Below are positions 28,731 to 60,000 of a stretch of DNA of 64,000 bases, piece by piece; position 1 is the first letter of the stretch; every line of letters begins with the position of its first letter. The DNA is taken from assembly GCA_030613055.1 (NCBI GenBank), contig JAUWMR010000003.1, forward strand, positions 62,001 to 126,000, read 5' to 3'. The translations under genes and the position numbers were made by a program. This DNA is from Desulfobacteraceae bacterium. GTDB lineage: Bacteria; Desulfobacterota; DSM-4660; Desulfatiglandales; Desulfatiglandaceae. The notes beneath the pieces were generated by a model. The model was not told the DNA's origin and searched no databases. It saw only the letters and a program-made list of their open reading frames with translations.

Positions 28731-29099
28731 GCCGTCAGTGCCCCACAATTAAGAGAAAAACATCCCTGTGAACAGGACGCCCCCCCCCTTATTTTGTCTT
28801 GACAATTTGAAGCACCTGCTATTTAACAAAAAATGGTAATAGCTCAATATTTCCGGAGTATACTTATTACCACGAAGGGCACGAAGAGACAGAGCACAAA
28901 AATATCCAATGCCCGCCTGCCGTCCCTGCCCGCAGTACGGCAGGCGGGCATTGGATATTATCTCACGGTCGCATCCATAGTTCTTCGTGGTGATTAATTT
29001 CCTTTCATTTTAAGGAGGGCATTGTTATAGACATAAAGCCCCTATTTATTGAGAAGATACGAAAAAGTTCACTAATACACCCGGACAGGAGGTAGGAAA
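28731..29099. repeat. intergenic stretch with a long perfect hairpin
   Basis: No gene was recognised. The arms at 28901-28923 and 28937-28959 (AATATCCAATGCCCGCCTGC plus CGT and its exact reverse complement) form a 23-bp stem with a 13-nt loop. Around it, TACCACGAAGGGCACGAAGA at about 28868 and TCTTCGTGGTGATTA at about 28981 form looser outer inverted ends. This looks like another small palindromic element. The end of the stretch contains the ribosome site of the BON gene. Confidence 0.75.
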
Positions 29100-35269: not shown

Positions 35270-36529
35270 TTAGAAATAATAGCGTACCTCAATATTCACT
35301 GAGTATGGATACAACCCGAATTCGCTTCTGATTTCAGAAGCTTTTGGTTTTCTACCAATGGGCGCACCGAGATTGATTGCAACTTCGGCTTCATCGGATA
35401 AGGAGTAGACCGCGTTAATTGACAACAAATAGGAATAGTCGGTCAGATTGGCAATTGCCAACATTTCTGCGTTTAGCAGCGGTGTGAATTCATAGCTGGC
35501 ACCGAGAGCGGTGTAGTTGCGACCCAGATAGGCATTCTCCCCCGGTGCAGCAGTGGATACAGCACCATAGCCCAAACGGTCGCTGGCGCCACCGCCGTGA
35601 TAAAACTGCTCGAGCCTTAAGGTCAGGCTGTTCTCCCAGCGGTGTTCGATACCTGCTGACAGTTCCGGGTATGTGCCCCGTTTTGAATCATCAGGATCGT
35701 AGGAATGGCCTTCGGCGCGCACGCCTAACCATTGAAACAGCTCACCCTGCAGGGAACCGCCGATCACGTTGGCCTCACGAATTACACCGCCAAACAGTGC
35801 CAGATCAAAGTCAAATAAAACAGTGGAGATTCGTCCAACGTATGAAGAACGGTTAGTGTCGGGTTCGTTGCTCCAGCCGGTTTCACTAACAAGGTCGCGT
35901 TTATAACCGAGCACGCCAATCAATGACATCTGGGAAAGATTGCCAAGCCGCACGCCAGCGCGGACAGCGTCGACGCCTGGTTTGTATACGCGATAAAACG
36001 CCTGGGCCGCGAAAGGGGCGAAGAAATCGTTGGGCGTAAAATAGAACGTGGTCGCCAGATTTACGGGTTGACGCCCTATGATAAGGTCGAGACGATCCCG
36101 CGACCAGCGGATGTTTGCCCTGTCTATCGCGAGGTGTACATATTCGTCGTCGCTGAAACTCCACTCCAGGCCGGCGCTGCGCTCAACATCAAAGGAAGTG
36201 CCCAGACCTGTCTGACGGGACGCCAAAGAGGAAAGGATCCATGTCTGGTAGGCGTTCAACTCCAGGCCGAAATGTTGACCGGCCTGTGCCTCCATAATCA
36301 GGCGGGCGACTGCACCTGCTCCGGTATCAGATCTGTCTTGATAGAAAAAACCCCTTTCCGGGTTTTCGCAGGCACTCCCGAATCCCCGGATCAAGCCGCG
36401 TAAATCCAGGGATCCATCTTCGGCCTGCCATTCAAAAAAGGCCCTTGCCGGGACATTCAATAATGTAAATAGAAGCGTCGCGCTGAAGAACAAGGCGAGG
36501 ATTGCCCTTGTGGTTGCATTGTGCTTCAA
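35270..36529 (-). CDS. outer-membrane beta-barrel protein linked to an ABC transporter
   Basis: 419 residues with a signal peptide (LALFFSATLLFTLLNVPARA). The mature part alternates in a beta-barrel pattern and ends in YSVNIEVRYYF, the C-terminal phenylalanine typical of outer-membrane barrels. Segments such as RDRLDLIIGRQPVNLATTFYFTPNDFFAPF and VYKPGVDAVRAGVRLG recur in barrel proteins encoded with MacB-like ABC genes. It overlaps the downstream end of the ABC ATPase remnant by 4 bp, so it was part of that export operon. Confidence 0.7.
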   Translation of the reverse strand: MKHNATTRAILALFFSATLLFTLLNVPARAFFEWQAEDGSLDLRGLIRGFGSACENPERGFFYQDRSDTGAGAVARLIMEAQAGQHFGLELNAYQTWILSSLASRQTGLGTSFDVERSAGLEWSFSDDEYVHLAIDRANIRWSRDRLDLIIGRQPVNLATTFYFTPNDFFAPFAAQAFYRVYKPGVDAVRAGVRLGNLSQMSLIGVLGYKRDLVSETGWSNEPDTNRSSYVGRISTVLFDFDLALFGGVIREANVIGGSLQGELFQWLGVRAEGHSYDPDDSKRGTYPELSAGIEHRWENSLTLRLEQFYHGGGASDRLGYGAVSTAAPGENAYLGRNYTALGASYEFTPLLNAEMLAIANLTDYSYLLSINAVYSLSDEAEVAINLGAPIGRKPKASEIRSEFGLYPYSVNIEVRYYF

Positions 36530-37005
36530 CCGCGAACCTCATCGTTCTCTATTTTACCGTCCCGCAGGCGGATAAGGCGGTGTGCGCGATCCATCACCCG
36601 CTGGTCGTGTGTGGAAAACAAAAAGGTTATCCCATAGTCCTGGTTGAGCTGCTGCATGATATCCAGCAGGGTATCTGCCGTTGCTGAATCCACATTTGCG
36701 GTAGGTTCGTCGGCCAGCACAATAGCAGGTCGAGTCACGATAGCCCGCGCTATTGCCACCCGCTGCTGTTGGCCTCCGGACATTTCATCGGGCCTGCGGT
36801 CTTCCAACCCATCAAGGCCAACATCTTTAAGGATAGCCATTACCCGATTCCTGCATTCGCTGGACGATACACCCTGCAACTTTAGAACGAATTCCGCGTT
36901 TTCATATGTGGTCATTACTGGGATCAGGTTATATGCCTGGAACACAAAACCGATGCGATCCCGGCGTATGGCTGCAACCCGGGAGCGGCCGATGGAGGCG
37001 AGTTC
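36526..37005 (-). pseudogene. MacB/LolD-type ABC ATPase lacking its N-terminus
   Basis: The open frame from 37005 reads ELASIGRSRVAAIRRDRIGF then VFQAYNLIPVMTTYENAEF (Q-loop), MSGGQQQRVAIARAIV (signature), IVLADEPTANVD (Walker B) and FLFSTHDQRVM (H-loop). Walker A and the first ~65 residues are missing: an in-frame TAA lies at 37006-37008 and the sequence beyond belongs to a truncated regulator gene. The gene cannot encode a working ATPase. A deletion that removed the promoter-proximal part, including any permease gene, is the simplest explanation. Confidence 0.85.
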
Positions 37006-37027: not shown

Positions 37028-37141
37028 TCACCCACCCTCACCAAGATATTGGAGGCACCGGCACATGGCCATCTCGATATCCAAGCTGCCGCATATCCGC
37101 ACTGTTACCTGCCGGAAGAAATCGTTTTCGTCTATGATCAT
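37028..37141 (-). pseudogene. start of a sigma-54 regulator gene, first ~33 codons only
   Basis: The frame from the ATG at 37141 reads [20 protein letters not shown] then DIEMAMCRCLQYLGEGG and stops. Its first 33 residues match the start of the intact regulator at 46588 ([37 protein letters not shown]) with few changes; similarity ends at LQYL. The ribosome site AAGGAGAA is preserved. It is the remnant of a paralogous regulator whose upstream module (37142-37321) is kept intact. Confidence 0.9.
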
Positions 37142-37191
37142 AATATTCTCCTTCTGGGTGGTGGCAAAGCCGGCAGATCGTTCAATCAAAG

Positions 37192-37233
37192 TGCCATATT
37201 TGGAACATTAACACACATGTGCCAAATATGGCA
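37192..37233. promoter_or_regulatory. putative enhancer (UAS) for the sigma-54 regulator, copy A
   Basis: TGCCATATTTGG at 37192-37203 and CCAAATATGGCA at 37222-37233 are perfect 12-bp inverted repeats separated by 18 bp, which itself includes CACATGTG. The centre lies about 95 bp upstream of the -24 element at 37307, a usual position for enhancer-binding proteins. The same site with one mismatch is at 46639-46680. Confidence 0.8.
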
Positions 37234-37304
37234 ATTTCTTTTGCCATTATTGACCCTTTGAACAGGGCTACTTGCTAACAGTTTGATTTTATTAAAATAA
37301 TATC

Positions 37305-37321
37305 TTGGCATGGTTTATGCT
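37305..37321 (+). promoter_or_regulatory. sigma-54 promoter of operon A
   Basis: TTGGCATGGTTTATGCT fits the -24/-12 consensus: GG at 37307-37308 and GC at 37319-37320 with exactly 10 bp between. It lies about 65 bp before the acyl-CoA dehydrogenase start at 37385. An almost identical promoter is at 46752-46768. Confidence 0.85.
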
Positions 37322-37384
37322 TATTCAAATTATGAGCTATAAACAATTTGCTATAAGCTGGAAAAATGATGGAAGGAAAGGTTT

Positions 37385-38540
37385 ATGGATTTTGAAATCC
37401 CGGAAAACCTGCGAATGATACAGGAGACCATCCGCCGTTTTGTAAAACAGGACCTTGAACCCATCTCTCAGAAGGTGGAGGATGAGGATCACATTCCAGA
37501 GGAGATTGTCCAGAAGATGCGTGAATTGGGCCTGTTTGGCCTCTCCATCCCCGAGGATTATGGTGGTCTGGGCTTGGGGGCGCTTGGGGAATGCCTGGTC
37601 TATGAGGAACTGACCAAGACCAACGCCGCCTTTCGATCCCGCATCGGAACGAGCAACGGCATCGGTTCCATGGGTATCCTGCTTGACGGTACGGAAGACC
37701 AGAAGCAAAAATACCTGCCTAAGATTGCCAGCGGGGAGTGGACTGCCTGCTTTGCCTTGTCAGAACCCGAGGCAGGTTCTGATGCGGGCAATGTTCAGAC
37801 CACAGCGGAGCGGGATGGTGAACATTTTATTATCAACGGGCTGAAGCATTTTATTACCAACGGTGATGTGGCCGATCTGGCCACAGTGATGACCGTGACC
37901 GATAAAGAGAAGAGAACCCGGGGAGGGATTACCGCTTTTGCGGTGGAGAAAGAAACGCCCGGGTTTTACGTGGGGACCATCGAGCGCAAAATGGGTTTGC
38001 GGGGCAAGCCACACATGCGAGCTGATCTTTGACAACTGTCGCCTCCCGGTGGAGAGCGTCATTGGCGGCGAGCCCATGATCGGTCAGGGCTTTAAAACAG
38101 CCATGCGGGTCCTTGACAAGGGCCGTCTCACCATGGGGTCATGCGCACTTGGGGCAGCTCAAAAGCTGTTGGACCTGTGTGTAGCTTACTCAAAGGAACG
38201 GGTCCAATTCGGCAAACCCATTTTTAAGTTTCAGTCAGTAGGGAATATGCTGGCAGATATGGCAACGGAAATCTACGCGGCCAGGCAGATGCTCTACCAC
38301 GCGGCATGGTTGAGGGACCAGGGAAAAAAGGTGATAAAGGAGGCCTCCATGGTGAAGCTCTTTTGCACGGAAATGGGGTGCAGGGTGGCTGACAATGCAC
38401 TACAGGTCTTCGGTGGCATGGGCTACATGAAGGATTTTCCTGTTGAACGGTTTTATCGGGATCTTCGTCTATACCGGATCTACGAAGGCACCAGCGAAAT
38501 TCAACGGCTGGTGATCGCCCGCGAGTTGACAAAGGACTAA
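37385..38540 (+). pseudogene. acyl-CoA dehydrogenase with a single-base frameshift
   Basis: First frame (37385-38032): MDFEIPENLRMIQETIRRF through FALSEPEAGSDAGNVQTTAE to ERKMGLRGKPHMRADL, then a stop. Second frame (to 38540) continues exactly where expected: SHTCELIFDNCRLPVESVIG, LQVFGGMGYMKDFPVERF, RLYRIYEGTSEIQRLV. Together they are a normal ~385-residue enzyme. Removing one A at 38006-38007 restores GSHTCEL. The rest of the gene shows no decay, so the lesion is recent or an assembly error. First gene of operon A, with GGAAAGG before the ATG. Confidence 0.85.
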
Positions 38541-38577: not shown

Positions 38578-39447
38578 ATGAGCGATGGAAAGGTGTTCAT
38601 TGTAGGCTCTGGACTAATGGGCAGTGGAATTGCCCAGGTCTGCGCCCAGGCAGGGATTGAGGTCTTTCTCTATGACATTAATCCCGATGCATTGGATAAG
38701 GCCCTTAAAGGTATTGAGTGGTCGGTCAACAAGTTTGTTGAAAAGGACAAAGTAAAAGAAGATGGAAACACCATCATGGGCAGGATCAAGACTGTCTCTG
38801 ATTTTTCGGAGGCTGAAGCGGTAGATCTGATCATCGAGGCGGTCTTTGAAAGGCTGGATCTCAAGCAGGAGATCTTCAAAAAGGCAGATGAGGCGGCAGG
38901 CCCTGAAGCCCTCATTGCCAGCAACACTTCGGCCATCCCCATCACCGAACTGGCCGCTGTGACCAACCGTCCGGAACAGGTTCTCGGACTCCACTTTTTC
39001 AGCCCGGTTCCCATGATGGAGGCAGTGGAGGTGATAAAAGGCGTTGCCACCACTGATGAGACGGCCAGAAAGGGAAAAGATTTTGTCCTTCAAATCGGCA
39101 AGGAGCCGATTATGGTCAACCGGGACATTGCCGGCTTCGTCATTAACCGGATCAATTTCCCGTCTACCATTGAAGCCATGAATCTGGTGGAGCAAGGGGT
39201 TGCGACAGTGGAAGACATCGACAAGGGGTTGAGGCTGGCTTCTGGAAGGAGAATGGGAATCTTTGAGACCGGAGATATGGTGGGTCTGGATGTGACCTAT
39301 GGGGCCATGATGGCTATGTACCAGGAAACTGGCGATCCGCGCTTTTACCCACCTCTGCTTCTGCGGCGCAAGGTAAAGGCCGGTCATCTGGGACGCAAGA
39401 CCGGTAAGGGGTGGTATGAATACGATGCGGATGGGAATAGAAAATAG
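38578..39447 (+). CDS. 3-hydroxyacyl-CoA (3-hydroxybutyryl-CoA type) dehydrogenase
   Basis: 289 residues, usual for single-domain 3-hydroxyacyl-CoA dehydrogenases. NAD-binding GSGLMGSGIAQVCAQAG; catalytic histidine and specificity region LGLHFFSPVPMMEAVEVIKG; the C-terminal domain has RDIAGFVINRINFP and TGKGWYEY. It oxidises 3-hydroxyacyl-CoA to 3-ketoacyl-CoA with NAD+. AAGGAGG precedes the ATG. The first dehydrogenase is 37 bp upstream and the large acyl-CoA dehydrogenase 16 bp downstream, all in operon A. Confidence 0.93.
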   Translation: MSDGKVFIVGSGLMGSGIAQVCAQAGIEVFLYDINPDALDKALKGIEWSVNKFVEKDKVKEDGNTIMGRIKTVSDFSEAEAVDLIIEAVFERLDLKQEIFKKADEAAGPEALIASNTSAIPITELAAVTNRPEQVLGLHFFSPVPMMEAVEVIKGVATTDETARKGKDFVLQIGKEPIMVNRDIAGFVINRINFPSTIEAMNLVEQGVATVEDIDKGLRLASGRRMGIFETGDMVGLDVTYGAMMAMYQETGDPRFYPPLLLRRKVKAGHLGRKTGKGWYEYDADGNRK

Positions 39448-39463: not shown

Positions 39464-41251
39464 ATGGGACATTTCAAAGTAAATGAGAAAGATATCTTTT
39501 TTATCCTGAAAGACCAGTTGAACTACGGCAGCCTTTGCAAGCTCGACCGCTACCGCGAACTTGACGAAGAGACGCTTGATATGCTTGTCAATGAGGCCGT
39601 CAAGTTTGCAAAGGGAGAACTCGACCCCCTTCAGGAGATCGGTGAAAACTGGGGGGTGAAATTTGAAAACGGAGAAGTCCTCTGTCCCCCTGAGTACAGG
39701 CATGCCTTTAGGCTGTACAGTGAAAACGGGTGGACAGCAGCAACCCGGGACCCCGAATATGGTGGCCAGGGCTTTCCCCATATGATGAGGACTGTCATAA
39801 ATGATCTCATGTTTGGTGCGGCCCAGGCATTCAATATAGCACCAAGCCTCACACATGGGGCCGCCCACCTTATAGAAAGCTTTGCGACCGAAGAGTTAAA
39901 AGAACGATTTGTTCCAAAGATGTTTGGGGGTGAATGGGCCGGAACCATGGCCATTACCGAACCGAATGCCGGCTCTAACCTGGCCGCCATCAAAACTACG
40001 GCCTTTCTCGAAGAAGATCATTTTAAGATCAAAGGCACCAAGATCTTTATTTCATGGGGAGACCACGATCTGGCCGAAAACATTATTCACCTCCTTTTGG
40101 CCCGTATTGAAGGTGCGCCCGAGGGGGTGAAAGGCATTTCGCTCTTTATCGTGCCCAAAATCAGGGTGCTTCCTGATGGTTCTCTGGGGGATGCCAATGA
40201 TGTTATCTGCACCGGAGTAGAAAAAAAGCTCGGACTCCACGCTTCGCCAACTTGTGCGCTTAATTTTGGGGATAATGACGGCTGTATCGGTTACCTTTGT
40301 GGGGGGCAAAGCAAAGGTCTGGTCCATATGTTTCAGATGATGAATGGTGCACGGATAAACATCGGTGTGAGCGGCATGACCCTGGCAAGTACAGCTTACC
40401 AGAATGCCCTTGCCTACACCAAAGAGCGCATTCAGGGTTCTGACGTGGCTGGCAGAAAGCCCGGGGATGTGCCAATCATCGACCATCCGGATGTGCGCCG
40501 GATGCTGCTATGGATGAAGGCTGTGGTGGACGGCATGCGATCCATGATTTACACGGCCGCCTTCTGGTCGGATCTGGCCCTTGAACTGCCGGACGGCGAA
40601 GATAAGGAGCACTATGAGAACCTAGTCGATTTCATGACACCCATTGTTAAGGCCTACTGCTCGGACATGGGTTTCCGGGTGTGTGAGACGGCCATCCAGT
40701 GCCTCGGCGGTTACGGGTTTTGCAAGGATTATCCCCTGGAGCAATACCTGCGAGACGCAAAGATAATGTCTCTCTATGAAGGAACCAACGGCATCCAATC
40801 CATGGACCTGATGGGCCGCAAGATGACCATCAGGGACGGTGCGGCGTATGCCGCCTATAAAGCCGAAATCGAACGCTTCTGCAAAAAGAACCAGGAACAT
40901 CCGGAACTGGGTGACAGGGTGCGGGCTCTGGCCGGGGTGGTGAAGCGGCTGTGGGAAACTGCTGAAGAGATGAAAGGCCGGATGGAGACCGATCCCCTCC
41001 AGTGGGCATCCTATACCTATCCGGGCCTTATGGCGTTCAGCGAGGTCACCATGGCCTGGCGCTTGCTGGACATGGCCCTGATCGCTTATGAACCTGCGCA
41101 AAAGGAAGGCAAGAAATATGATTCTTACCGGGGCAAGATCTTCCAGGCCACCTATTTTGTGGACACCACCCTGCCCCATACCCTGGCCACCATCGAAACC
41201 TGCCTGCGTCAAGGACGGGAAATCGTGGAAATTCCCGACATTGCGTTTTAG
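39464..41251 (+). CDS. large acyl-CoA dehydrogenase (DmdC/AcdA-like, 595 residues)
   Basis: 595 residues. MAITEPNAGSNLAAIKTTAF and FISWGDHDLAENI correspond to the flavin-binding middle domain; QCLGGYGFCKDYPLEQYLRDAKI and SLYEGTNGIQSMDLMGRK to the catalytic C-terminal domain, followed by a helical extension. This length and the EGTNGIQSMDLMGR wording are those of the subfamily that includes 3-methylmercaptopropionyl-CoA dehydrogenase DmdC; many members act on ordinary or branched acyl-CoAs. The substrate is not determined by sequence. GGAGGAG precedes the ATG; it belongs to operon A. Confidence 0.88.
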   Translation: MGHFKVNEKDIFFILKDQLNYGSLCKLDRYRELDEETLDMLVNEAVKFAKGELDPLQEIGENWGVKFENGEVLCPPEYRHAFRLYSENGWTAATRDPEYGGQGFPHMMRTVINDLMFGAAQAFNIAPSLTHGAAHLIESFATEELKERFVPKMFGGEWAGTMAITEPNAGSNLAAIKTTAFLEEDHFKIKGTKIFISWGDHDLAENIIHLLLARIEGAPEGVKGISLFIVPKIRVLPDGSLGDANDVICTGVEKKLGLHASPTCALNFGDNDGCIGYLCGGQSKGLVHMFQMMNGARINIGVSGMTLASTAYQNALAYTKERIQGSDVAGRKPGDVPIIDHPDVRRMLLWMKAVVDGMRSMIYTAAFWSDLALELPDGEDKEHYENLVDFMTPIVKAYCSDMGFRVCETAIQCLGGYGFCKDYPLEQYLRDAKIMSLYEGTNGIQSMDLMGRKMTIRDGAAYAAYKAEIERFCKKNQEHPELGDRVRALAGVVKRLWETAEEMKGRMETDPLQWASYTYPGLMAFSEVTMAWRLLDMALIAYEPAQKEGKKYDSYRGKIFQATYFVDTTLPHTLATIETCLRQGREIVEIPDIAF

Positions 41252-41280
41252 GTGGAAAAAGGAGATACGGGAGGATCACA

Positions 41281-42363
41281 TGAAAGAAGTCGTTGTTATC
41301 AGTGCCGTCAGAACGCCTGTTGGCCGGTACATGGGCGCTCTTAGAACAGTTGAAGCCTATGACCTTGCAGCCCTGGTGCTCAACGAAGCAATAAAAAGAG
41401 CGAATGTTGAGCCGTATCAAGTGGATGAGGTGATACTGGGCCAGTCCTATCAGAACGGCGAATATGTCAATATCGCCCGGATGGCGCTGCTCAAGGCCGG
41501 ATGGCCTGAAGGGATACCTGGCGTCACACTGGACCGGCGTTGCTGCACCGGGCTGGACGTGGTGCGCTTTGCAGCCGCCCTTATCCGGTCAAATCAGGCG
41601 GAGATCGTTGTGGCGGGGGGAGTAGAGAGCATGAGCAATGCCGAGTTTTATCTTCCCGGAAACATAAAATGGGGTGTGGGCGGAAGCAAAGGTATGCCCC
41701 GCGGTCACGGGGATCTGTCCATTTGGGGGCTTCGATTTTATGATCGCATTCAGCGGGCCCGGGTCATGACACAGCCGGAAGATCGATACGGGGTACTCCC
41801 TTCCATGATGTCATGGGCCGAGACTGCTGCAAAAGAGGAAAATATCACGCGGGAGGCATGTGACCAGTGGTCCCTTGAAAGCCACCAAAAAGCCTGTAAG
41901 GCCATGGAAGCGGCAAATTCAAGGAGGAGATCCTCCCCATGTCGGTTCCCCAGCCCAAGGGTGCCCCGGCGATCGTGGATCAAGACGAAAATCCCCGGGC
42001 CGACACCACACTGGAGAGGCTCAGCCGCCTCAAACCGGTATTAGGCGGAGTATGCACTGCAGGCAATTCCTCCACGGAAAATGATGGGGCAGCCGCAGTG
42101 GTCGTTACATCAGCAGAAAAAGCGGCCGAATTGGGCGTCACACCCTTTGCCACTCTAAAGTCTTGCGCTGTGGCAGGGGATGATCCCAGGCATACATACA
42201 GAACGGTTCAGGGATCTCTCTTGGTCACCCCATAGCGTGTACAGGAACACGGGTGTTGGTCACCCTGCTTCATGAAATACGAAGGCGAAATGCACGTTAC
42301 GGGCTGGAATGCATCTGCGGGGGCGGGGGACTCGGAATCGCTGCGATCTTCGAAAGGCGATAG
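41281..42363 (+). pseudogene. thiolase pseudogene with two frame breaks and an internal deletion
   Basis: Starts normally (AAGGAGATACGGGAGG site) as MKEVVVISAVRTPVGRYMGA and keeps the reactive cysteine (RRCCTGLDVV). At 41912-41913 one G of a GGG run is missing, after which the thiolase frame continues as LPMSVPQPKGAPAIVDQDE to SCAVAGDDPRHTYRTV. At about 42208-42212 it jumps to GISLGHPIACTGTRVLVTL in yet another frame and ends normally at GGGGLGIAAIFERR, stop 42361-42363. About 50 residues with the NEAFA motif are gone, as judged against the adjacent intact thiolase. It cannot give a functional enzyme. Confidence 0.88.
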
Positions 42364-42380
42364 AAAAGGAGAATGGGCAT

Positions 42381-43574
42381 ATGGAAAAAATTTTGAACGA
42401 CGTGGTGGTGATCGATGCGGTCCGTACCGCCTTCGGCCGCGCCGGTGAAAAGGGAATCTTCTGGAAAACAAGGGCAGACGACCTCTGTGTTCCGCTGCTC
42501 AAGGCCCTGATTGAACGGAATCATCCGATGCAACCGAATATGGTCGAAGACGTGATCTGGGGCGCGACCAACCAGATGAAAGAACAGGGAGGAACCATCG
42601 GCAGGAGTATTTCCATGCTTGCAGATTGGGGCTGGGACATACCGGGCTGCTCCATCGACAGGCTGTGCGCAAGCGGGCTGACAGCTACCGGATTTGGTGT
42701 CTCCTACATTGCCACTGGCATGGCCGACTGTCTGGTTACCGGTGGCGTCGAGCACATGGGGCATCTGCCCATGGGCTATATGCGTGATCCGCACCCAAGG
42801 GCAGAAGAGGTCATGGGAGATGCTTCCGCTTTTAACATGGGAATGACCGCGGAAAACATCCACGACCGATTTCCCGAATTCACCAGGGAAATGGCGGACG
42901 CTTACGCTGTGCTCTGCCAGAAAAAGGCAGACAGGGCCATCAAGGCCGGAAAAATGAAAGAGATGATCATTCCCATTGAGATCGAGCTTGTGGACGGGAT
43001 AAGCATCATTGCCGATAAAGATCAGCCGCCCAGACCCGATACCAGTATAGAAGGATTGGCTGAGCTGAAAACCCCCTTCAGAGAGGAAAACGGACGGGTG
43101 ACGGCAGGAAATGCCTCGGGGCTAAATGACGGGGCCGCTGCAGTCCTGCTTATGGATGCTGAGAAGGCCTCGGAGCTGGGTCTCCGTCCCAAAATGCGTT
43201 GGGTGGCCTCTGCTGTGGTTGCCGTAGATCCCAGAGTCATGGGCATTGCACCCGTCCCTGCCACGGAAAAGGTCCTGAAAAAGGCCGGATTGACCATGGA
43301 AGATATGGACATCATTGAACTCAATGAGGCCTTTGCGGTTCAGGCCCTTTATTGCCTGGATCGTCTTGGATTAAAGTGGGATGATCCCAGGGTAAACATA
43401 TGGGGCGGCTCCATTGCTTACGGACACCCGCTTGCATCCTCCGGCCCCCGCCTTGTGGCTTTTTTGATGAACATTTTCAAGGAAAATCCTGGCGCCAGGT
43501 ACGGGTTAACCACCATGTGCGTGGGAAGGGGGCAGGGATATTCCGTGATCTGGGAAAACCTTTTGGGAGAATAA
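42381..43574 (+). CDS. acetyl-CoA acyltransferase (thiolase)
   Basis: 397 residues from the ATG at 42381 (AAAAGGAG upstream); a longer frame from 42309 overlaps the preceding pseudogene. The nucleophile is in IDRLCASGLTATG; NEAFA in [15 protein letters not shown]; the histidine in GGSIAYGHPLASSGPR; the second cysteine in TMCVGRGQGYSVIWE. It completes beta-oxidation by releasing acetyl-CoA. As the thiolase just upstream is broken, this one presumably carries the step in operon A. Confidence 0.92.
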   Translation: MEKILNDVVVIDAVRTAFGRAGEKGIFWKTRADDLCVPLLKALIERNHPMQPNMVEDVIWGATNQMKEQGGTIGRSISMLADWGWDIPGCSIDRLCASGLTATGFGVSYIATGMADCLVTGGVEHMGHLPMGYMRDPHPRAEEVMGDASAFNMGMTAENIHDRFPEFTREMADAYAVLCQKKADRAIKAGKMKEMIIPIEIELVDGISIIADKDQPPRPDTSIEGLAELKTPFREENGRVTAGNASGLNDGAAAVLLMDAEKASELGLRPKMRWVASAVVAVDPRVMGIAPVPATEKVLKKAGLTMEDMDIIELNEAFAVQALYCLDRLGLKWDDPRVNIWGGSIAYGHPLASSGPRLVAFLMNIFKENPGARYGLTTMCVGRGQGYSVIWENLLGE

Positions 43575-43640: not shown

Positions 43641-44411
43641 ATGAAATTCGAAAATATCATTTTAGAGAAAAAGGATCACCTCAGCATTATCACCTTCGAC
43701 CATCCTCCGGCCAACGCCTGGAATCTTGCCACCCTGGAGGAATTTGAAAAAGTTATTGATGCGTTGGAAAATGATCGTGATACAAGGGTGGTCATCCTGA
43801 CCGGTGCCGGAGAGAAGTGTTTTTCCGCAGGGCTCGATGTCAGTGATACCGCAAATATTCCTAAAATAAGCCCCAAGGCCCGGGCCCTATGGAGACGGAT
43901 CGATCGTTTCCCTAAGCCAGTCATCGCCGCTATCAACGGCTATGCCCTGGGAGGGGGGCTGGAGCTGGCCATGTGCTGCCATTTTCGAATAATGGTGGAC
44001 GACTCGAAAATCACGGTCGGTCTTACCGAGCTTAACCTCGGGATTTTCCCGGGCTGGGGAGGAACACAACGATTGCCGCTTCTGGTGGGCAAGGCCAGGG
44101 CCCTGGGCATGATCCTTTTCAGCAAGAAAATCAACGCCGCCGCGGCCCTGGAGATCGGCTTGATTAACCAGGTGTCTGCTCCGGGGAAACTGATGGATGA
44201 TGCCCTTGAATTTGCGCAAAAGCTGGTCGAAAGACCCCCCATCGCGGTCAGTTGCGTGCTAAACGCGATGGCCGCTGGAAACTATGAGGGCCTGGACAAA
44301 GGGCTCAATGTGGAGGCGGAGGGCAGCACCCGAGTGCGTGAGACAAAAGATCGTGTCGAGGGTTTTACCGCATTCCTTGAGAAGCGTAAGCCTGTGTTTA
44401 CAGGAAAATAG
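43641..44411 (+). CDS. enoyl-CoA hydratase
   Basis: 256 residues. Both catalytic glutamates are present: GYALGGGLELAMCCHFR (near residue 108) and GLTELNLGIFPGWGGTQRL (near residue 130), unlike the protein at 1113-1853. It hydrates trans-2-enoyl-CoA. AAAAGGA precedes the ATG. It is the last intact gene of operon A; fragments of an MFS gene and an acyl-CoA synthetase follow. Confidence 0.92.
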   Translation: MKFENIILEKKDHLSIITFDHPPANAWNLATLEEFEKVIDALENDRDTRVVILTGAGEKCFSAGLDVSDTANIPKISPKARALWRRIDRFPKPVIAAINGYALGGGLELAMCCHFRIMVDDSKITVGLTELNLGIFPGWGGTQRLPLLVGKARALGMILFSKKINAAAALEIGLINQVSAPGKLMDDALEFAQKLVERPPIAVSCVLNAMAAGNYEGLDKGLNVEAEGSTRVRETKDRVEGFTAFLEKRKPVFTGK

Positions 44412-44430
44412 AGTGATACCGAAAACCGGG

Positions 44431-44602
44431 ATGATGCGTATTGTGCCTACTGCAAAGAACCGAATCTATTACGGCTGGTACATTGTGGCCATCGCGTTCT
44501 TCGCACACTTCATGGCCGTAGGCAGTGGATTTTACGTCTTCAACGCCTTCATGCAGCCGCTCTGCGAGGTGCGGAACTGGACCCGAACCGATATAAATCG
44601 CT
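44431..44602 (+). pseudogene. N-terminal fragment of an MFS transporter
   Basis: The frame reads MRIVPTAKNRIYYGWYIVAI then AFFAHFMAVGSGFYVFNAFM and QPLCEVRNWTRTDIN, the first helix region of oxalate/formate antiporter-like MFS proteins. After about 55 codons the same frame runs straight into acyl-CoA synthetase sequence, with no second helix. It starts 20 bp after the enoyl-CoA hydratase stop. Confidence 0.7.
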
Positions 44603-44986
44603 GGCCTGCAATAGAACTCTCTGGAACTGAGAGGGCTTACGGTGAAGCTGTCAAGGCCGTTTGTGCTGATCCCGGAGTGGATGCGCTGTTTCTGCACATT
44701 TTTGTCGGAGGGTTGGCAAGGCATCTTGAAATTTCTTCTATCGTTAAGGTTGTCCGGGATGCCGGGAAGCCACTGTTTTGTTGGCTTCTGGGAAAGCGCA
44801 AGGAAGCCAGAGAATTTCACAAGCAGGTCCAGGATATGGGCATTCCGGTTTACCGTGAACTGTACCGGGCCGTTGAATGCATGGTGGCCGTCCTTTCCCG
44901 CAAATCAGTGAGACAGACATCAACCCGCTCATCGTCGAAAACGGCATGCCTGTTACCGTGGATGCAACAATGATTCTGGAGGGGTA
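44603..44986 (+). pseudogene. fragments of an NDP-forming acyl-CoA synthetase
   Basis: First fragment (to about 44895): RAYGEAVKAVCADPGVDALF, IVKVVRDAGKPLFCWLLGKR, GIPVYRELYRAVECMVAVL, matching the end of the CoA-binding half of ADP-forming acyl-CoA synthetases. Then, in another frame, PQISETDINPLIVENG and PVTVDATMILEG with a stop at 44984-44986, the very end of the ATP-grasp half. The catalytic grasp region between them (about 200 residues) is deleted. Confidence 0.7.
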
Positions 44987-45046: not shown

Positions 45047-46588
45047 TTACAGGGCGGCCCGACGCCCATACGGTATACCTAATCTCTCCATTCGATTTCT
45101 AAGGGTGCTTGGGTTTATCCCAAGCAGTTCAGCAGCCCCTCCCGGACCCCGGACTTTTCCTTTTGCCATCTTCAATACCCGCCGGATGTGCCTCGATACA
45201 ACCTCGTCAAGTTTAAGCGGTTCATCCTCCGCAACAGGTAAGCCCGAGGTTTCATCTTCTTGTTGGGGCAATATCAACTGGTCTAATTTCATGGAACCGG
45301 TCTTGTTCAGAATCATGGCACGTTCAAGGATGTTTTCAAGCTCTCGCACGTTGCCCGGCCAATTGTAGGCCATTAGATGGTCAATGGCGCCAGTGTATAG
45401 CTTCGGGGGCGTGTGTAGGTTAAGTTCCCTGGATTTTCGCTCAATCAGGTGATTAACCAATGCAGGGATGTCCCTTTTTCTCTTCCTCAAAGGCGGAATC
45501 ATGATGGGAAAGACGTTGAGTCGAAACCACAAATCTTCCCGGAACTGATTCGACTCGACCATGCTTTTCAGGTTCCGATGAGTAGCAGCGATAACCCTTA
45601 TATCAACAGAAATAGGCCCTGATCCTCCTACCCGCTCGATCTCTTTGTGCTGAAGGACTCTGAGCATTCTGAGCTGTGCCTGCGGCGACAGTTCCCCGAT
45701 CTCGTCAAGAAAAATGGTTCCCTTATCAGCGCGCTCAAAGCGACCGCGTTTTTGAGCCACGGCTCCGGTAAAAGCCCCCTTCTCGTGTCCAAAGAGCTCG
45801 CTGTCCATCAGGTTCTCCGGAATAGAACCGCAATTGACCTTGATTAACGGTCCATCCCTTCGGGGAGATAAATGATGAATGTCGTTTGCGATAAGCTCTT
45901 TGCCTACTCCGGTCTCTCCCAGGAGCAACACCGGCGTATTGAGCTGGGCCACCTTTGCGACCATCTCCATTACACCTTTCAAGCCCAGATCCTTGCCGAT
46001 GATTTCGTCGCCGGACTGACGCAGGAGCTCTTGATAAAGATAGCGGTTGTCGTCGGTCACCAGGTCCTTCAATTTGGTAACTTCCTGATGCCTGAGGGCG
46101 TTGGAAATGGCGATGGCAAAGGGCTCATTCAACAGTGAAAATAAACGGGCGTGCTCCTCCGAATATCTGTCCTTTCCCTTGGCTCCTAAGGTAATACCTC
46201 CGATTCTCTTGCCTTCGATCACCATGCGCATGACCAAAAATGACCATTCCGGTCTCCCAAAGGATTTGATCACATCCTGCATAACCGTGTCCTGTTCAGG
46301 CCGATTGATGATTTTCACTAAATCCAAGAGGGCCTCCCCTTCAAGGCTGGACCTTGCTTTCTGAGATAGGGGAATTAGCAGATCCATCTTTCTGCCCTCG
46401 GAAGCCGTTGCCCGGGCGATGGTTCGCAAGGCACCAAGACCAGGGTCATAGAGGTTCAGGAACATGGAATCCACGGGCAGAAAACGCTCAAGATATTGGA
46501 GACACCGAAACATCGCCAGCTCGATATACAGGCTGCCGCATATCCGAATGGTTACCTGCCGGAAGAAATCGTTTTCGTCTATGATCAT
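45047..46588 (-). CDS. sigma-54-dependent activator (GAF-AAA+-Fis)
   Basis: 513 residues from the ATG at 46588, chosen for AAGGAGAA just upstream; a longer frame to 46636 enters the regulatory region. Residues ~20-190 resemble a GAF sensor domain. The AAA+ domain has Walker A GETGVGKE (near 221), the sigma-54 contact loop GAFTGA (near 270), [17 protein letters not shown] and [13 protein letters not shown]-like [20 protein letters not shown]. The Fis-type helix-turn-helix is at the end ([21 protein letters not shown]). It is divergent from operon B and shares a 180-bp module with operon A, so it probably activates both. The inducer bound by the GAF domain is unknown. Confidence 0.92.
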
Positions 46589-46638
46589 AATGTTCTCCTT
46601 CTGAGTGGTGGCAAAGCCGCCAGATGGTTCAATCAAAG

Positions 46639-46680
46639 TGCCATATCTGGAACATTAACACACATGTGCCAAATATGGCA
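46639..46680. promoter_or_regulatory. putative enhancer (UAS) for the sigma-54 regulator, copy B
   Basis: TGCCATATCTGG at 46639-46650 and CCAAATATGGCA at 46669-46680, an inverted repeat with one mismatch and the same 18-bp spacer as copy A at 37192. The centre lies about 95 bp from the -24 element. It stands between the regulator gene and operon B and could serve both autoregulation and activation. Confidence 0.8.
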
Positions 46681-46751
46681 AATTCTTTTGCCATTATTGA
46701 CCCTTTGAACAGAGCTATTTGCTAACAGCTTGATTTTATTATAATAATATT

Positions 46752-46768
46752 TTGGCATGGTTTATGCC
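46752..46768 (+). promoter_or_regulatory. sigma-54 promoter of operon B
   Basis: TTGGCATGGTTTATGCC: GG at 46754-46755, 10 bp, GC at 46766-46767. Same position relative to the enhancer as in copy A. The first intact gene begins at 47191, leaving a leader of roughly 410 nt that contains a sulfatase relic. Confidence 0.8.
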
Positions 46769-46963
46769 TATTATGATAGTGGTAGACAAAGAGAAAGAGT
46801 AACCGTTCACAGGTTCAGGGTTCAACGTTCAGGGTTAAGGACAAAGAAGGGATTGAAGACCCGAAGTCCTCGTTAAAAATGCTCATTTTCCCAAGTAATT
46901 GCCAATTTGGCTCCAAATTTTGGATTAGGCCTGTCGAAGATGACGCTTTTTGGGCTTGGTCGC

Positions 46964-47152
46964 ATGGAGGAAAAGACAGATATCTGGACGTGCACCCCTG
47001 GAAGTGTCGCAGAAACTCCCACGGGTGACGAATTATATGATCGAAAAAAAGATCCTTTTCAATTAGACAATCTGTTGGATCAAAGACCTGATATGGGTAA
47101 GGAGCTTTTCCAGCAGTTAAGAGACCATATGTTGGTATTGAGAACTTCCTGA
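46964..47152 (+). pseudogene. C-terminal relic of a sulfatase (arylsulfatase family), copy 1
   Basis: The frame reads IWTCTPGSVAETPTG, then DELYDRKKDPFQLDNLLDQR and a final helix to MLVLRTS with stop. ELYDxxKDPxQxxNL is the conserved end of type I (formylglycine) sulfatases. The catalytic part with the CxPxR motif is absent. A second, clearly related relic lies at 59824-60000, so the two bracket operon B. Confidence 0.8.
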
Positions 47153-47190: not shown

Positions 47191-48570
47191 ATGGGAAAAA
47201 TACTTGAACTTGCAGAAGCACTATGGAAGGGAGAAGATGATGTGTACTCCCATCATCCTTTTGGCCCCCCCTATGGTACGGAACCTATCGCAGAGGGTGC
47301 TTGGTTCAATAAAGGCTTTGCAAATACTATCATCCGGAAGACGGAAGATGGATTAATTATCGTGGATCCTGGCGGTTTTTTCGACAGCCGAAACAAGTTT
47401 GATTCCATCCGTAAGGTGGTCCCTGACCCTCTCCACACCGCCATTTTCACCCATGGGCATACCGATCATGTCTTCGGCGTACCGCAATTTGTGAAAGAGG
47501 CCGCCTCAAAGGGTTGCTCCAGGCCAAGAGTCATTGCCCATGAGGCCATATTGGACCGTTTTCGGCGCTACGCGGAAACGGCGGGTTGGAACGGGGTCAT
47601 CAACGGCCGACAATTCCAGGGCAATGCCGATCAACCTACCTGGCCGGATCAATTCTCTACGCCTGACATAACCTATACAAAAAGTCTCAATATATGCGTA
47701 GGCGGTGTTGATCTGCATCTCAGACACGCACGGGGGGAGACCGACGACCATACCTGGGTCTTTTTCCCGGATATCCGCCTCCTCTGCACCGGCGATCTCT
47801 TTATCTATGCCGTTCCAAACGCGGGCAACCCCCAAAAGGTCCAGCGTTACGCCGGGGAATGGGCCATGGCCTTGCGTGAAATGGCCTCCCTTGAACCGGA
47901 AATCCTGGCCCCCGGCCATGGATTCCCCATTCTGGGCAGGGACCGGGTTTGTCAGGCCCTGGAGGACACGGCGGCTCTGTTAGAATCTCTTCAAGAACAG
48001 ACGCTAACTCTGATGAACAAGGGAGCAACTCTGGATGAGATCCTTCACGCGGTGAAGATTCCGGAAAAACTCAGCAGGCGTCCTTACTTGCAGCCGGTGT
48101 ATGATGAGCCCGAATTCATTGTCCGAAACATTTACCGTCTGTATGGCGGCTGGTACGACGGGATGCCGTCACACCTGAAACCTGCGCCTGAGCAAGCAAA
48201 AGCCGAGGAGGTCGCACGCCTTGCAGGGGGTGCAGATAAACTTGCGGCCAGGGCGGAAGAGCTCCTGGCCGAAGGAAACCTTCGCCTGGCTTGCCACCTG
48301 GCCGACTGGGCTTATCTCGCTGCTCCGGAAGACACGGCAGTTAGGAGGACAGCGGGTCGAATCTACATGGCCAGGACAGAGTCAGAGCAGTCAACCATGG
48401 CCATGGGAATCTACCTGTCCGTTGCGAGAGAAATGGATGCGGAACCGGAAAATGAATTGCTGCAAAAGGGTTACCTGATCCGCGCCCAGTCTGCACGGGA
48501 AAAAGGGGCATTGGGTGAAAAAAAGCATGTGAAAAATCAAGAAACAATGGGCGGGGATAGGAATGGCTAA
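47191..48570 (+). CDS. alkyl-sulfatase-like metallo-beta-lactamase protein 1
   Basis: 459 residues. MBL zinc motif THGHTDH at residues 87-93; later ligands in HARGETDDHTWVFFP, LLCTGDLF and APGHGFPILG. The following region YGGWYDGMPSHLKPAPEQA with helical LAARAEELLAEGNLRLACHLADWA corresponds to the alkyl-sulfatase dimerisation domain. It has no C-terminal SCP2-like domain and no signal peptide. Most similar in the window to the protein at 58495 (same GETDDHxW wording). It may be a sulfatase variant or a related hydrolase. It overlaps the ligase gene by 8 bp. Confidence 0.8.
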   Translation: MGKILELAEALWKGEDDVYSHHPFGPPYGTEPIAEGAWFNKGFANTIIRKTEDGLIIVDPGGFFDSRNKFDSIRKVVPDPLHTAIFTHGHTDHVFGVPQFVKEAASKGCSRPRVIAHEAILDRFRRYAETAGWNGVINGRQFQGNADQPTWPDQFSTPDITYTKSLNICVGGVDLHLRHARGETDDHTWVFFPDIRLLCTGDLFIYAVPNAGNPQKVQRYAGEWAMALREMASLEPEILAPGHGFPILGRDRVCQALEDTAALLESLQEQTLTLMNKGATLDEILHAVKIPEKLSRRPYLQPVYDEPEFIVRNIYRLYGGWYDGMPSHLKPAPEQAKAEEVARLAGGADKLAARAEELLAEGNLRLACHLADWAYLAAPEDTAVRRTAGRIYMARTESEQSTMAMGIYLSVAREMDAEPENELLQKGYLIRAQSAREKGALGEKKHVKNQETMGGDRNG

Positions 48571-50110
48571 AAGTTTCCGGGGAGGAATCTATTTGAATTT
48601 AGTCCAATTAGCTGAAGACAACTACAACAAATTTGGTGAATATCGGTACCTGGTTTTCGATGAAAAGGATTACACAAATTTGGAAATGCTCCGCTATTCC
48701 AAAAAAATGTCAAACGGCCTGAGAAATCTGGGTCTGAAATCGGGTGACAACGTGGTTGTTATGATGCCCAATTCCCCGGAGGTGCTTGTGAGCTATCAGG
48801 GAATATTAGGGGCAGGTTGTGTTATTGTACCGGTGGTGCCGGCGTTAACCGAAAGAGAATTAAAACATATTTTATTGAATTCCGGGGCTGTGGCGATTGT
48901 TACGAGCCTGGCACATCTGCCCAAGGTCGAATTGGTTAGAGAAGAGATAGAAACCCTGAAGCACGTCATCATCGTGAAAGAGGGTCAAGTTCCCGGAACT
49001 ACAGATTTTTGGGATTTGATAAATGATAGCTCTGATGAGCCCATTTCAATTAACATAAAGGATGATGATCTGGCTGTTATTATTTATACGGCCGGCACTA
49101 CCGGAACACCCAAAGGTGTCATGCTGACGCACAAAAACCTTTATACCAATGCCATAAATAGCGCATCGGCCCGCAAAGCTAAAAAAGACGAGATCAGCCT
49201 GGCAGTACTGCCCATGTCCCACTCTTTCGGCATAACAATAATGAATATGTCATTCATCCATGGAAATTTTTGGGTTTTGATGCCTCGTTTCAACGTTGAA
49301 GAAACGTTCAGGCTGATCGAAAAACACAGGGTCACGAATTTCCCCGGAGTGCCGACCATGCTAAGTCTTATGCTGCTTGCCCCCCCGGAGGTGAGGCAAA
49401 AATATGATCTTTCCTCCCTTGAGAATGTGACCAGCGGCTCAGCACCCCTGCCGGTGGAGACACTGCAGACCTTCCAGAAGGAATTCGACTGTATCATTAG
49501 AGAAGGTTACGGCTTGTCCGAAGCCTCCCCGGTGGTAAGCACCCATTATATTGATCGCGAGATCAAACCGGGCTCCGTCGGTCAACCCATCCCGGAAACA
49601 GAAGTTCGAATTGTCGATGAAACGGAAGAAGATGTGCCCGTGGGCGAAGTCGGCGAACTTATCGCAAAAGGCCCCAACATTTCGCCCGGCTATTATAAGA
49701 TGCCCCTGGAGACCGGCAATACCTTCAAGGACGGATGGCTTTATACCGGCGACATGGCCAGGATGGACAAGGACGGTTATCTTTTCATTGTTGAAAGAAA
49801 AAAAGATCTTATCATCCGTGGCGGTTTTAATATCTATCCCCGCGATGTTGAGGAGATACTCCATCAATATCCCAAAGTGCAGGAAGCAGCGGTCATCGGC
49901 GTTCCGGATCCCATTATGGGTGAGGAAGTAAAAGTCTTCATTGTTCTTGCAAGCGGTGCAACCGCCAGAGAGCAGGACATAATAGATTTCTGCAAACAAC
50001 ATCTTTCAGAAAATAAATGTCCTAAAATGGTCCAGTTTCTTGACAATCTGCCCAAAAGCCCCATCGGTAAGGTCTTGCGAAAAGAACTGCGCAAGCTCGA
50101 AGGGGAATAG
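48563..50110 (+). CDS. AMP-forming acyl-CoA ligase
   Basis: 515 residues. P-loop IIYTAGTTGTPKGVMLTH, adenylate-binding EGYGLSEASPVVS, DGWLYTGDMARMDKDGYLFI, hinge RKKDLIIRGGFNIYPRDVEE and the C-terminal lysine in PIGKVLRKELRK: all motifs of the acyl-CoA synthetase superfamily. It activates a carboxylic acid to acyl-CoA using ATP. The position between two sulfatase-like genes and before alcohol/aldehyde oxidation genes fits activation of a fatty acid derived from an alkyl sulfate. Chain length is not known. Confidence 0.9.
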   Translation: MAKSFRGGIYLNLVQLAEDNYNKFGEYRYLVFDEKDYTNLEMLRYSKKMSNGLRNLGLKSGDNVVVMMPNSPEVLVSYQGILGAGCVIVPVVPALTERELKHILLNSGAVAIVTSLAHLPKVELVREEIETLKHVIIVKEGQVPGTTDFWDLINDSSDEPISINIKDDDLAVIIYTAGTTGTPKGVMLTHKNLYTNAINSASARKAKKDEISLAVLPMSHSFGITIMNMSFIHGNFWVLMPRFNVEETFRLIEKHRVTNFPGVPTMLSLMLLAPPEVRQKYDLSSLENVTSGSAPLPVETLQTFQKEFDCIIREGYGLSEASPVVSTHYIDREIKPGSVGQPIPETEVRIVDETEEDVPVGEVGELIAKGPNISPGYYKMPLETGNTFKDGWLYTGDMARMDKDGYLFIVERKKDLIIRGGFNIYPRDVEEILHQYPKVQEAAVIGVPDPIMGEEVKVFIVLASGATAREQDIIDFCKQHLSENKCPKMVQFLDNLPKSPIGKVLRKELRKLEGE

Positions 50111-50139: not shown

Positions 50140-51858
50140 GTGCCAACCAACCGCGCCTACGATAAACCTGCTCCCACCATCCATCCAAGACTGACGGAAC
50201 ATTCGCAAAAGATGGCCAAAAAGGTATACAAGGTAACGGATGGCTATTATCTTGCTTATGGATATGGTCTTGCCAGTACCCATATGATCGTTGGAAACGA
50301 TGGTATTATTATCATTGATCCGGTTGAATGCGTCGTGAAATCCCGTGAGATCTACCAGGAATTCCGCAAAATCACGGACAAGCCCGTGAAAGCCATCATC
50401 TACACCCATATGCACGGAGACCATGTTTTTGGGGTTAAGGCCTTTGTTTCACAAGAGGAGGTGGACGCAGGATCGTGTGAGATCATTGCCCACGAGACCA
50501 TGATCCCAAACTTGATTGCCGCGGGAACAACCGGTGCGGGAAAAGTGCTCTTTTTCCGGACCTATTACACCTTCGGCAACTTCCTGGAATCAGGGCCTGA
50601 AGGCCGTGTGAACGGGGGGATCGGGCCGGATGGGTTATATGAGGAGATCTCTCTTATCCTCCCTACCCGGACAGTTAAAGATGTTCTGGATCTGGAAATT
50701 GTGGGAGTAAAAATGCATATCTTCTGGGTTCCCAGCGAATGTGACGATGAAATCGCCGTGTGGTTCCCCCAGATGAAGGTCCTTTGCAGCGCAGAAGTCA
50801 TTCAGGGCGAGACTTTTCCCAACCTGCATAGCCTTAGGGGGACTCGGTACCGTGATCCGAAGCAATGGTATAAAAGCATCGATCTCCTCCGAACATTTGA
50901 TGCCGAACATATGGCGCCTTCTCATGGGCGGCCCGTAACCGGCAGAAAAAACGTGGCCGAGATTCTGACTGCTTACCGGGATGCCATCCAGTTCGTCCAC
51001 AACCAGACGATCCGCTATATGAATAAGGGCTACACGCCGGATGAACTGGTCGAACTTGTCAAACTCCCTGATCACCTGGCTTATCACCCATGGCTTGGAG
51101 AATTCTACGGCACGGTCAAGCACTCTGTACGTCAAATATATCAGGGAGAACTCGGATGGTTCAATGGCGATCCCACCACCCTGGATCCAACGCCGCCTAA
51201 AAAACTGGCCTCACGCCATGTGGCGCTCATGGGTGGCCGCGACAGGATAATGGCGGAGGCCAGAAAAGCCCTGGATGATCGGGATTACCAGTGGGCGGCA
51301 GAACTGACCTCCCATATTATCCGTATGGATAAAGAGGACATGGAGGCCCGAAAAATAAAGGCATCAGCGCTCCGTGAACTCGGTTACAAAACCATGAATA
51401 TCAACTGGAGAAACTGGTACCTGACGTCTGCCCGAGAGCTGGAGGGCACCAAATTCGATCCTTCCCGGATGGTAGACAGGACTGATGTGGTGGGAGCACT
51501 GCCGTCCGGTGTAAAGGTTGAAGCCATTGGGATGCGCCTTGCCGCGGAAAACGCCCTTGATCTCCACATGACCATGGGTTTCCACTTCCCGGACTCTAAT
51601 GAACATCACGCCATAGAAATACGCAGGGGCATCGCCCAGTTCCATCCCAGATATCCGGACAAGGTCGATGTGGCGCTGGTTCTGACTGAGACCTATCTTG
51701 GAGAGATTATCGTTGGGAAAGCATCCTTTGAAGAGGGACTGAGAACAGGCAAAATAAAGGTTGAGGGAAAAATGGAAGACGTCGTCAAATTCTTTGGCTG
51801 CATTGAGAAGCCCAAGAACAACGATACGATTTTTCTTACACAAACAAACCAGCCGTAG
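50140..51858 (+). CDS. SdsA-type alkyl sulfatase (MBL fold, SCP2-like C-terminus)
   Basis: 572 residues starting with GTG after AAAGGAGG. The domain order is that of linear alkyl sulfatases such as SdsA1: GYGLASTHMIVGNDGIIIID opening, zinc motif THMHGDHVFG (T89-H95), glutamates in PSECDDEIAVWFP and LCSAEVIQGETFPNLHSLRG, a histidine in APSHGRPVTG, dimerisation domain from TLDPTPPKKLASRHVALMGG, and an SCP2-like C-terminal domain (VGALPSGVKVEAIGMRLAAE, GKASFEEGLRTGKIKVEG). SdsA1 is exported, but this protein has no signal peptide and should be cytoplasmic, which fits the transporter genes that follow. It hydrolyses R-OSO3 to alcohol and sulfate. Confidence 0.88.
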   Translation: MPTNRAYDKPAPTIHPRLTEHSQKMAKKVYKVTDGYYLAYGYGLASTHMIVGNDGIIIIDPVECVVKSREIYQEFRKITDKPVKAIIYTHMHGDHVFGVKAFVSQEEVDAGSCEIIAHETMIPNLIAAGTTGAGKVLFFRTYYTFGNFLESGPEGRVNGGIGPDGLYEEISLILPTRTVKDVLDLEIVGVKMHIFWVPSECDDEIAVWFPQMKVLCSAEVIQGETFPNLHSLRGTRYRDPKQWYKSIDLLRTFDAEHMAPSHGRPVTGRKNVAEILTAYRDAIQFVHNQTIRYMNKGYTPDELVELVKLPDHLAYHPWLGEFYGTVKHSVRQIYQGELGWFNGDPTTLDPTPPKKLASRHVALMGGRDRIMAEARKALDDRDYQWAAELTSHIIRMDKEDMEARKIKASALRELGYKTMNINWRNWYLTSARELEGTKFDPSRMVDRTDVVGALPSGVKVEAIGMRLAAENALDLHMTMGFHFPDSNEHHAIEIRRGIAQFHPRYPDKVDVALVLTETYLGEIIVGKASFEEGLRTGKIKVEGKMEDVVKFFGCIEKPKNNDTIFLTQTNQP

Positions 51859-51927
51859 GAGCTGCTGGCTTGAGGGCTCGGGTAAGACTTTGTCCTTCCT
51901 CGCACTTGATCGGTGGAGACACGACAT

Positions 51928-53841: not shown

Positions 53842-53899
53842 AGTAATGATAACCTTTTAAACCCGGAACCTTAAACCCTATATGAAAAAGGAGAAAAAA

Positions 53900-56431: not shown

Positions 56432-56443
56432 GGAGGTAAAAGC

Positions 56444-59823: not shown

Positions 59824-60000
59824 GTCTGTGCTATCCTCTGGACGTGCACTCCTGGAAACGTAGCAAAAACCCCCAAGAGGAATGAATTATACGATCGAAA
59901 GAAAGATCCCTATCAATTGAATAACTTGCTGGATCAGGAGCCTGAAATAGCCAATAAATTGCATCTAAAACTGAGATATTACATGCTAAAATTGAGAACC
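59824..60000 (+). pseudogene. C-terminal relic of a sulfatase, copy 2
   Basis: The frame reads ILWTCTPGNVAKTPKRNELY then DRKKDPYQLNNLLDQEPEIA and YYMLKLRT, closely parallel to 46964-47152 (IWTCTPGSVAETPTGDELYD). The end is fused to another fragment at about 60000. No catalytic domain is present. Confidence 0.78.

Follow-up and report, generated by a model that had tools for sequence, protein, structure and literature searches.

A sigma-54 regulatory module present twice, before two catabolic operons of a Desulfobacteraceae bacterium

The window, by which we mean the whole 64,000-nucleotide stretch of Desulfobacteraceae DNA analyzed here, carries two copies of one regulatory segment, each in front of a different catabolic operon. 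The best reading of these sequences is that a single activator probably controls both operon A (beta-oxidation) and operon B (sulfate-ester degradation) through the copied regulatory module. An earlier note on this DNA had held that both operons answer to the same activator. We retain that claim as the most economical reading, given that both modules are complete and of the family type and that the genome yielded a single full-length member of the activator family.

Two copies of one regulatory module

A BLASTN comparison within the window aligned positions 37042-37325 with 46489-46772 over 284 bp, ungapped, at 92.25% identity (E = 8e-116). The two copies lie in direct orientation, 9.4 kb apart, and the pairwise alignment keeps a constant offset of 9447. 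An ungapped alignment at this offset, with about a dozen substitutions, had already been described for 37139-37321. There, 171 of 183 positions are identical, which makes exactly 12 substitutions. The duplication described was real, but its span was too short: the repeat extends about 100 bp further to the left, and this left part, absent from the earlier note, covers codons 1-33 of the regulator. At the right end, the match stops four bases past the promoter element. Across the genome (4.26 Mb in 97 contigs, 95.6% complete), a full search found these two copies only. Near-identical regulatory regions here precede unrelated first genes in one genome, the pattern by which a duplicated or propagated promoter is recognized.

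Copy A (37042-37325, plus strand) comprises the regulator start, an enhancer, an IHF-type site and a sigma-54 promoter, while copy B (46489-46772, plus strand) is attached to the intact regulator, whose start makes up its left part. By alignment and motif search, candidate enhancer (UAS) palindromes were placed at 37192-37233 in copy A and at 46639-46680 in copy B, and in each copy the half-sites precede the promoter by 110 and 81 bp. The 12-bp inverted repeat previously reported for both copies is perfect in A (arms 12/12) but reaches only 11/12 in B, where a C replaces a T. A genome-wide search for the paired palindrome returned these two sites only, whether exact or with up to three mismatches, and a genome-wide control with the reversed pattern gave no matches. 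A consensus scan added an element that had gone unmentioned, a perfect (9/9) IHF-type site between enhancer and promoter in each copy (37276-37288 and 46723-46735, both on the minus strand), 29 bp upstream of the promoter element. Promoter scoring found a -24/-12 promoter at 37305-37321 in A (TTGGCATGGTTTATGCT, plus strand, 13/13 consensus positions) and at 46752-46768 in B (TTGGCATGGTTTATGCC, plus strand, 12/13). The GG-N10-GC element noted before, TTGGCATGGTTTATGC, is identical in A and B, and the regulator's ribosome site is likewise retained in both copies, as its complement TTCTCCTT. Both copies are predicted to be complete sigma-54 modules of paired palindrome, IHF-type site and -24/-12 promoter.

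The regulator had been placed correctly at 45047-46588 (minus strand). Pfam matches describe a one-component sigma-54 activator with a GAF-like N-terminus, an AAA+ domain with GAFTGA and a Fis-type HTH. The AAA+ domain matches PF00158 (Sigma54_activat) at E = 1.6e-68, as expected of an enhancer-binding protein, and the GAFTGA motif is found in the translation at columns (271-276) that are invariant across 23 family members. The HTH_8 match (E = 1.7e-4, 21.7 bits) falls just under the cut-off of 22 and was taken as a Fis-type HTH; HTH_8 is found at E <= 0.001 in 18 of the 23 members. The GAF_2 match is weak (E = 2.5e-4, under the curated cut-off), and five of the 23 members match that domain. 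The regulator reached none of the NCBIfam equivalog cut-offs shown for NorR, FhlA and NifA, the best NifA model giving 365 bits vs 529. A search with the N-terminal profile found this one full-length member of the family in the genome, which also holds one rpoN gene and several HU/IHF-type genes.

At copy A, only a truncated regulator stub is left (37028-37141, minus strand). Its translation holds 33 codons homologous to the regulator, beyond which the sequence is foreign and the frame closes after 37 codons in total, and the profile matches residues 1-33 only. The stub is fused to an ABC-transporter ATPase fragment (36526-36945, minus strand) that has lost its 5' end, judging from its reading frame and from a Pfam ABC_tran match that starts only at position 65 of 137.

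The enhancer arms and promoter had also been held to be better preserved than expected for a useless relic. This did not survive comparison: the core elements differ at 3 of 72 bp vs 9 of 112 bp in the other noncoding part of the repeat (Fisher p = 0.24). The preservation tests on substitutions gave p = 0.14 to 0.24, none of them significant, and we dropped the argument for selection from the substitution pattern at these values. None of the three core substitutions hits a required position. One lies in a palindrome arm, at a position that matches better in A, another in the spacer of the IHF site and the third at the last promoter position.

The operons behind the two promoters

Operon B, on the plus strand, was annotated by domain and family searches. 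Its first gene (47191-48570) encodes an alkyl-sulfatase-type metallo-beta-lactamase protein without the C-terminal domain, which is also absent from the protein at 58495. An AMP-forming acyl-CoA synthetase (48563-50110) follows, and then an alkyl sulfatase (50140-51858) with all three domains of the SdsA type, namely the metallo-beta-lactamase, dimerisation and C-terminal domains. Further downstream are a fused TRAP transporter permease and TAXI-type binding protein (51913-54976) and an iron-type alcohol dehydrogenase together with an aldehyde ferredoxin oxidoreductase (55163-58276). The leader between the promoter and the first gene is 420 bp long and holds sulfatase debris. Positions 46983-47082 and 59837-59936 form a 100-bp repeat, 79% identical and present at only these two places in the genome, which reads like the C-terminal end of a class-I sulfatase (ELYDRKKDP..., with E of about 0.002 against sulfatases in PDB). 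Since one copy of this repeat lies within the leader, the B promoter may formerly have stood in front of a sulfatase gene and driven it. A search of Rfam found no known RNA in 36000-60500.

Operon A, also on the plus strand, begins with an acyl-CoA dehydrogenase gene (37385-38540) whose reading frames reveal one frameshift, near 38010-38030 and outside any homopolymer, which could be an assembly error. An assembly error explains less easily the state of the first thiolase gene (41277-42306), a pseudogene that carries frameshifts and lacks about 60 internal codons through a deletion. Pfam searches found intact genes for a 3-hydroxyacyl-CoA dehydrogenase (38578-39447), a second acyl-CoA dehydrogenase (39464-41251), a second thiolase (42309-43574) and an enoyl-CoA hydratase (43641-44411), i.e., one intact gene for each step of beta-oxidation. 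A further ORF, at 44284-44973, looks like the start of a transporter gene fused to the end of a CoA-ligase gene, and the one Pfam match, to CoA ligase, was weak. To judge from these reading frames, operon A is partly pseudogenised and decaying, so its wiring may outlast part of its output. This decay, like the regulator stub at copy A, had gone unnoticed in the earlier note. The broken genes could also lower expression of the remaining operon by polarity.

Two features lie elsewhere in the window. An electron transfer flavoprotein ORF at 62205-62834 matches Pfam ETF only from position 35, and the N-terminal region may have been deleted or may lie in a different frame. A self-complementary segment of about 60 bp at 28901-28959, with 90% identity to its own reverse complement, is a potential hairpin.

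Layout and stubs across the activator family

We compared the module with 118 upstream regions of the activator family, drawn from relatives and named public genomes as well as from this genome. Divergent sigma-54 promoters with a score of 11/13 or higher were present at 88 of these 118 loci, vs 2 in shuffled sequence. The promoter-anchored comparison comprised 83 loci, with the window's own two copies excluded. An IHF-type site was located 29-30 bp upstream of the promoter in 36 of the 83 and was nearly absent at other offsets; after thinning to <70% protein identity, it was found at 28-31 bp in 25 of 54 loci. CATATTT half-sites were observed at 27 of the 83 loci vs 5.2 expected. Forward and reverse half-sites tend, on small counts, toward about 111-114 and 81-84 bp upstream, and the enhancer distance in the window falls within this family-typical region of half-site enrichment. 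Because both window copies fit the family geometry, we take the predicted order of enhancer, IHF-type site and promoter to be genuinely conserved rather than a resemblance by chance.

In other genomes, family regulators adjoin genes of the operon B type (L206, from Desulfatitalea alkaliphila, and L217) as well as genes of the operon A type (L167, L191 and L170 (Desulfosarcina cetonica)), so both are normal company for this family. In the regulator tree, the window regulator groups with neither the sulfatase-linked nor the acyl-CoA-dehydrogenase-linked members, so that on this tree either operon may have been its original target. Elsewhere in the family, the regulator at L195 4184-5017 has an apparent second in-frame copy of the conserved N-terminal stretch about 171 residues after the first.

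More than once, the body of the regulator is gone and the predicted enhancer-promoter survives; orphan stub-plus-promoter units are found in two other genera. In a second genus of the same family (genome G003), an orphan stub at L072 7766-8840 (G003:C1:1554441-1554539) has the same 33 codons with a palindrome and a sigma-54 promoter. From the translations, read without a family search, this module precedes genes that resemble a molybdenum-hydroxylase-type operon, and on the stub side it is joined to the ribosome site of a gene that resembles a carbonic anhydrase. A search of the same genome for a parent of the L072 module found none. In genome G159 (L154 9587-10267, G159:C27), a stub about 23 codons long, which retains a strong sigma-54 promoter and an IHF-type site, lies 680 bp before a full-length regulator, which is itself without a recognisable divergent sigma-54 promoter. 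Decayed stubs number two in G440 and one in G003. We considered the codon-33 breakpoint of L072 as a defined cassette end and rejected it, as other stubs end at about codons 22-23 and 43; the common codon-33 end of the copy A and L072 stubs may be coincidence. It seems quite unlikely that regulator start, enhancer and promoter form a recurrent unit of spread, with preferred breakpoints such as codon 33, that repeatedly leaves stubs with their enhancer-promoter modules intact and brings new catabolic operons under trans control by an activator that has survived.

Probable shared control, its alternatives and known systems

Control of both operons by the one activator is favoured because both modules are complete in the family geometry and the genome holds one full-length family member and one rpoN. 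The source of the shared control would be the copied regulatory module of the putative GAF-AAA+-Fis activator. Dimers of the activator would occupy each palindrome, some 80-110 bp ahead of the promoter, IHF would bend the DNA between enhancer and promoter, and the activator, upon a ligand signal, would remodel sigma-54 RNA polymerase at both promoters. A single signal would thereby induce operon B, for uptake, sulfate-ester cleavage, alcohol and aldehyde oxidation and CoA activation, jointly with operon A, for beta-oxidation of the resulting acyl-CoA. Shared control makes metabolic sense because the steps follow in this order. From the known chemistry of the enzyme families, the two operons could together form one route from a sulfate ester, the presumed substrate, to acetyl-CoA. 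Several points count against shared control: the frameshifted first gene and the thiolase 1 pseudogene of operon A, the non-significant preservation test, the debris-laden 420-bp leader of operon B, and the incompleteness of the genome, from which a further family member could be missing.

Some of the same points would suit an alternative that we regard as unlikely, in which copy A is a recent non-functional leftover. Here, the whole regulator-plus-promoter unit would have been duplicated and the second regulator deleted, with the promoter now drifting along with a dying operon A. The fusion of the stub to a truncated ABC gene fits this account, as do the frameshifted first gene, the deleted thiolase and the fused transporter/ligase remnant of operon A, the core elements that are not significantly better preserved than the rest, and other family stubs (L152 and L153) without a recognisable promoter. 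However, copy A keeps every required position of enhancer, IHF-type site and promoter after 8% divergence, surpasses copy B in both palindrome and promoter match, and precedes four intact enzymes.

We consider it very unlikely that two older modules, each acquired on its own, are being kept alike by gene conversion or recombination, in which case the similarity would say little about the timing of shared control. Direct homologous segments 9.4 kb apart could exchange sequence, and both operon types adjoin separate family members in other genomes; yet the 22 substitutions of the full repeat are spread, with no visible converted block, and the homology stops abruptly at both ends. That another sigma-54 activator switches on operon A, the retained enhancer being irrelevant or only partly used, is more improbable still: the genome encodes many other such activators, but none of them matches the N-terminal profile of the family, and the enhancer layout of operon A is identical to the one beside the regulator.

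Under the preferred reading of shared control, this would be a case of rewiring caught soon after the event: one can still read which segment was copied and where it ends, as well as the parent regulator and the operon that received the copy. From the family comparison there also emerges a conserved layout of enhancer, IHF-type site and promoter, shared by a large group of activators from Desulfobacterota and their relatives, and a limited literature search found no paper describing it. The conserved layout should make regulon membership predictable in genomes rich in such regulators.

With GAF-AAA+-Fis activators of the NorR, FhlA and NifA type, the window regulator has in common the GAFTGA loop and the domain order, the latter clear except for its weak GAF match. 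NifA-type promoters have an IHF-assisted activation layout, as do the predicted modules here. Unlike those proteins, the window regulator has its own conserved N-terminal stretch, and it scores under the equivalog cut-offs shown. The largest numbers of such activators are found in Desulfobacteria (PMC12316311). In Desulfovibrio vulgaris, one-component sigma-54 activators are divergent from neighbouring targets and have palindromic sites (PMC4641369). The window shares with that species an enhancer-binding protein gene divergent from a sigma-54 promoter and a palindromic upstream site; it differs in that the segment of regulator start, enhancer and promoter is present twice, the second copy preceding another operon. 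Regarding the pathway, the Psychrobacter plasmid pP62BP1 carries an SDS-degradation gene cluster with an alkyl sulfatase (PMC10779009). Alkyl sulfatase genes in a degradation cluster are common to both systems. Unlike the pP62BP1 cluster, the set here, with its putative substrate, is of anaerobic type, with aldehyde ferredoxin oxidoreductase and TRAP transport, and stands beside a sigma-54 activator.

Copying existing promoters before other genes is an established route of rewiring, according to PMC5906472, which cites Matus-Garcia 2012 and Oren 2014. As in promoter propagation in prokaryotes (Matus-Garcia et al. 2012, cited in PMC5906472), an existing upstream regulatory region has been copied before other genes, and the duplication is a clear example of this known rewiring by copying. 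In this case, however, an enhancer, an IHF-type site and part of the regulator gene were copied as well, and the parent regulator is still nearby. It is unusual that a copy spans the full enhancer layout plus a regulator piece and that parent and copy are still together.
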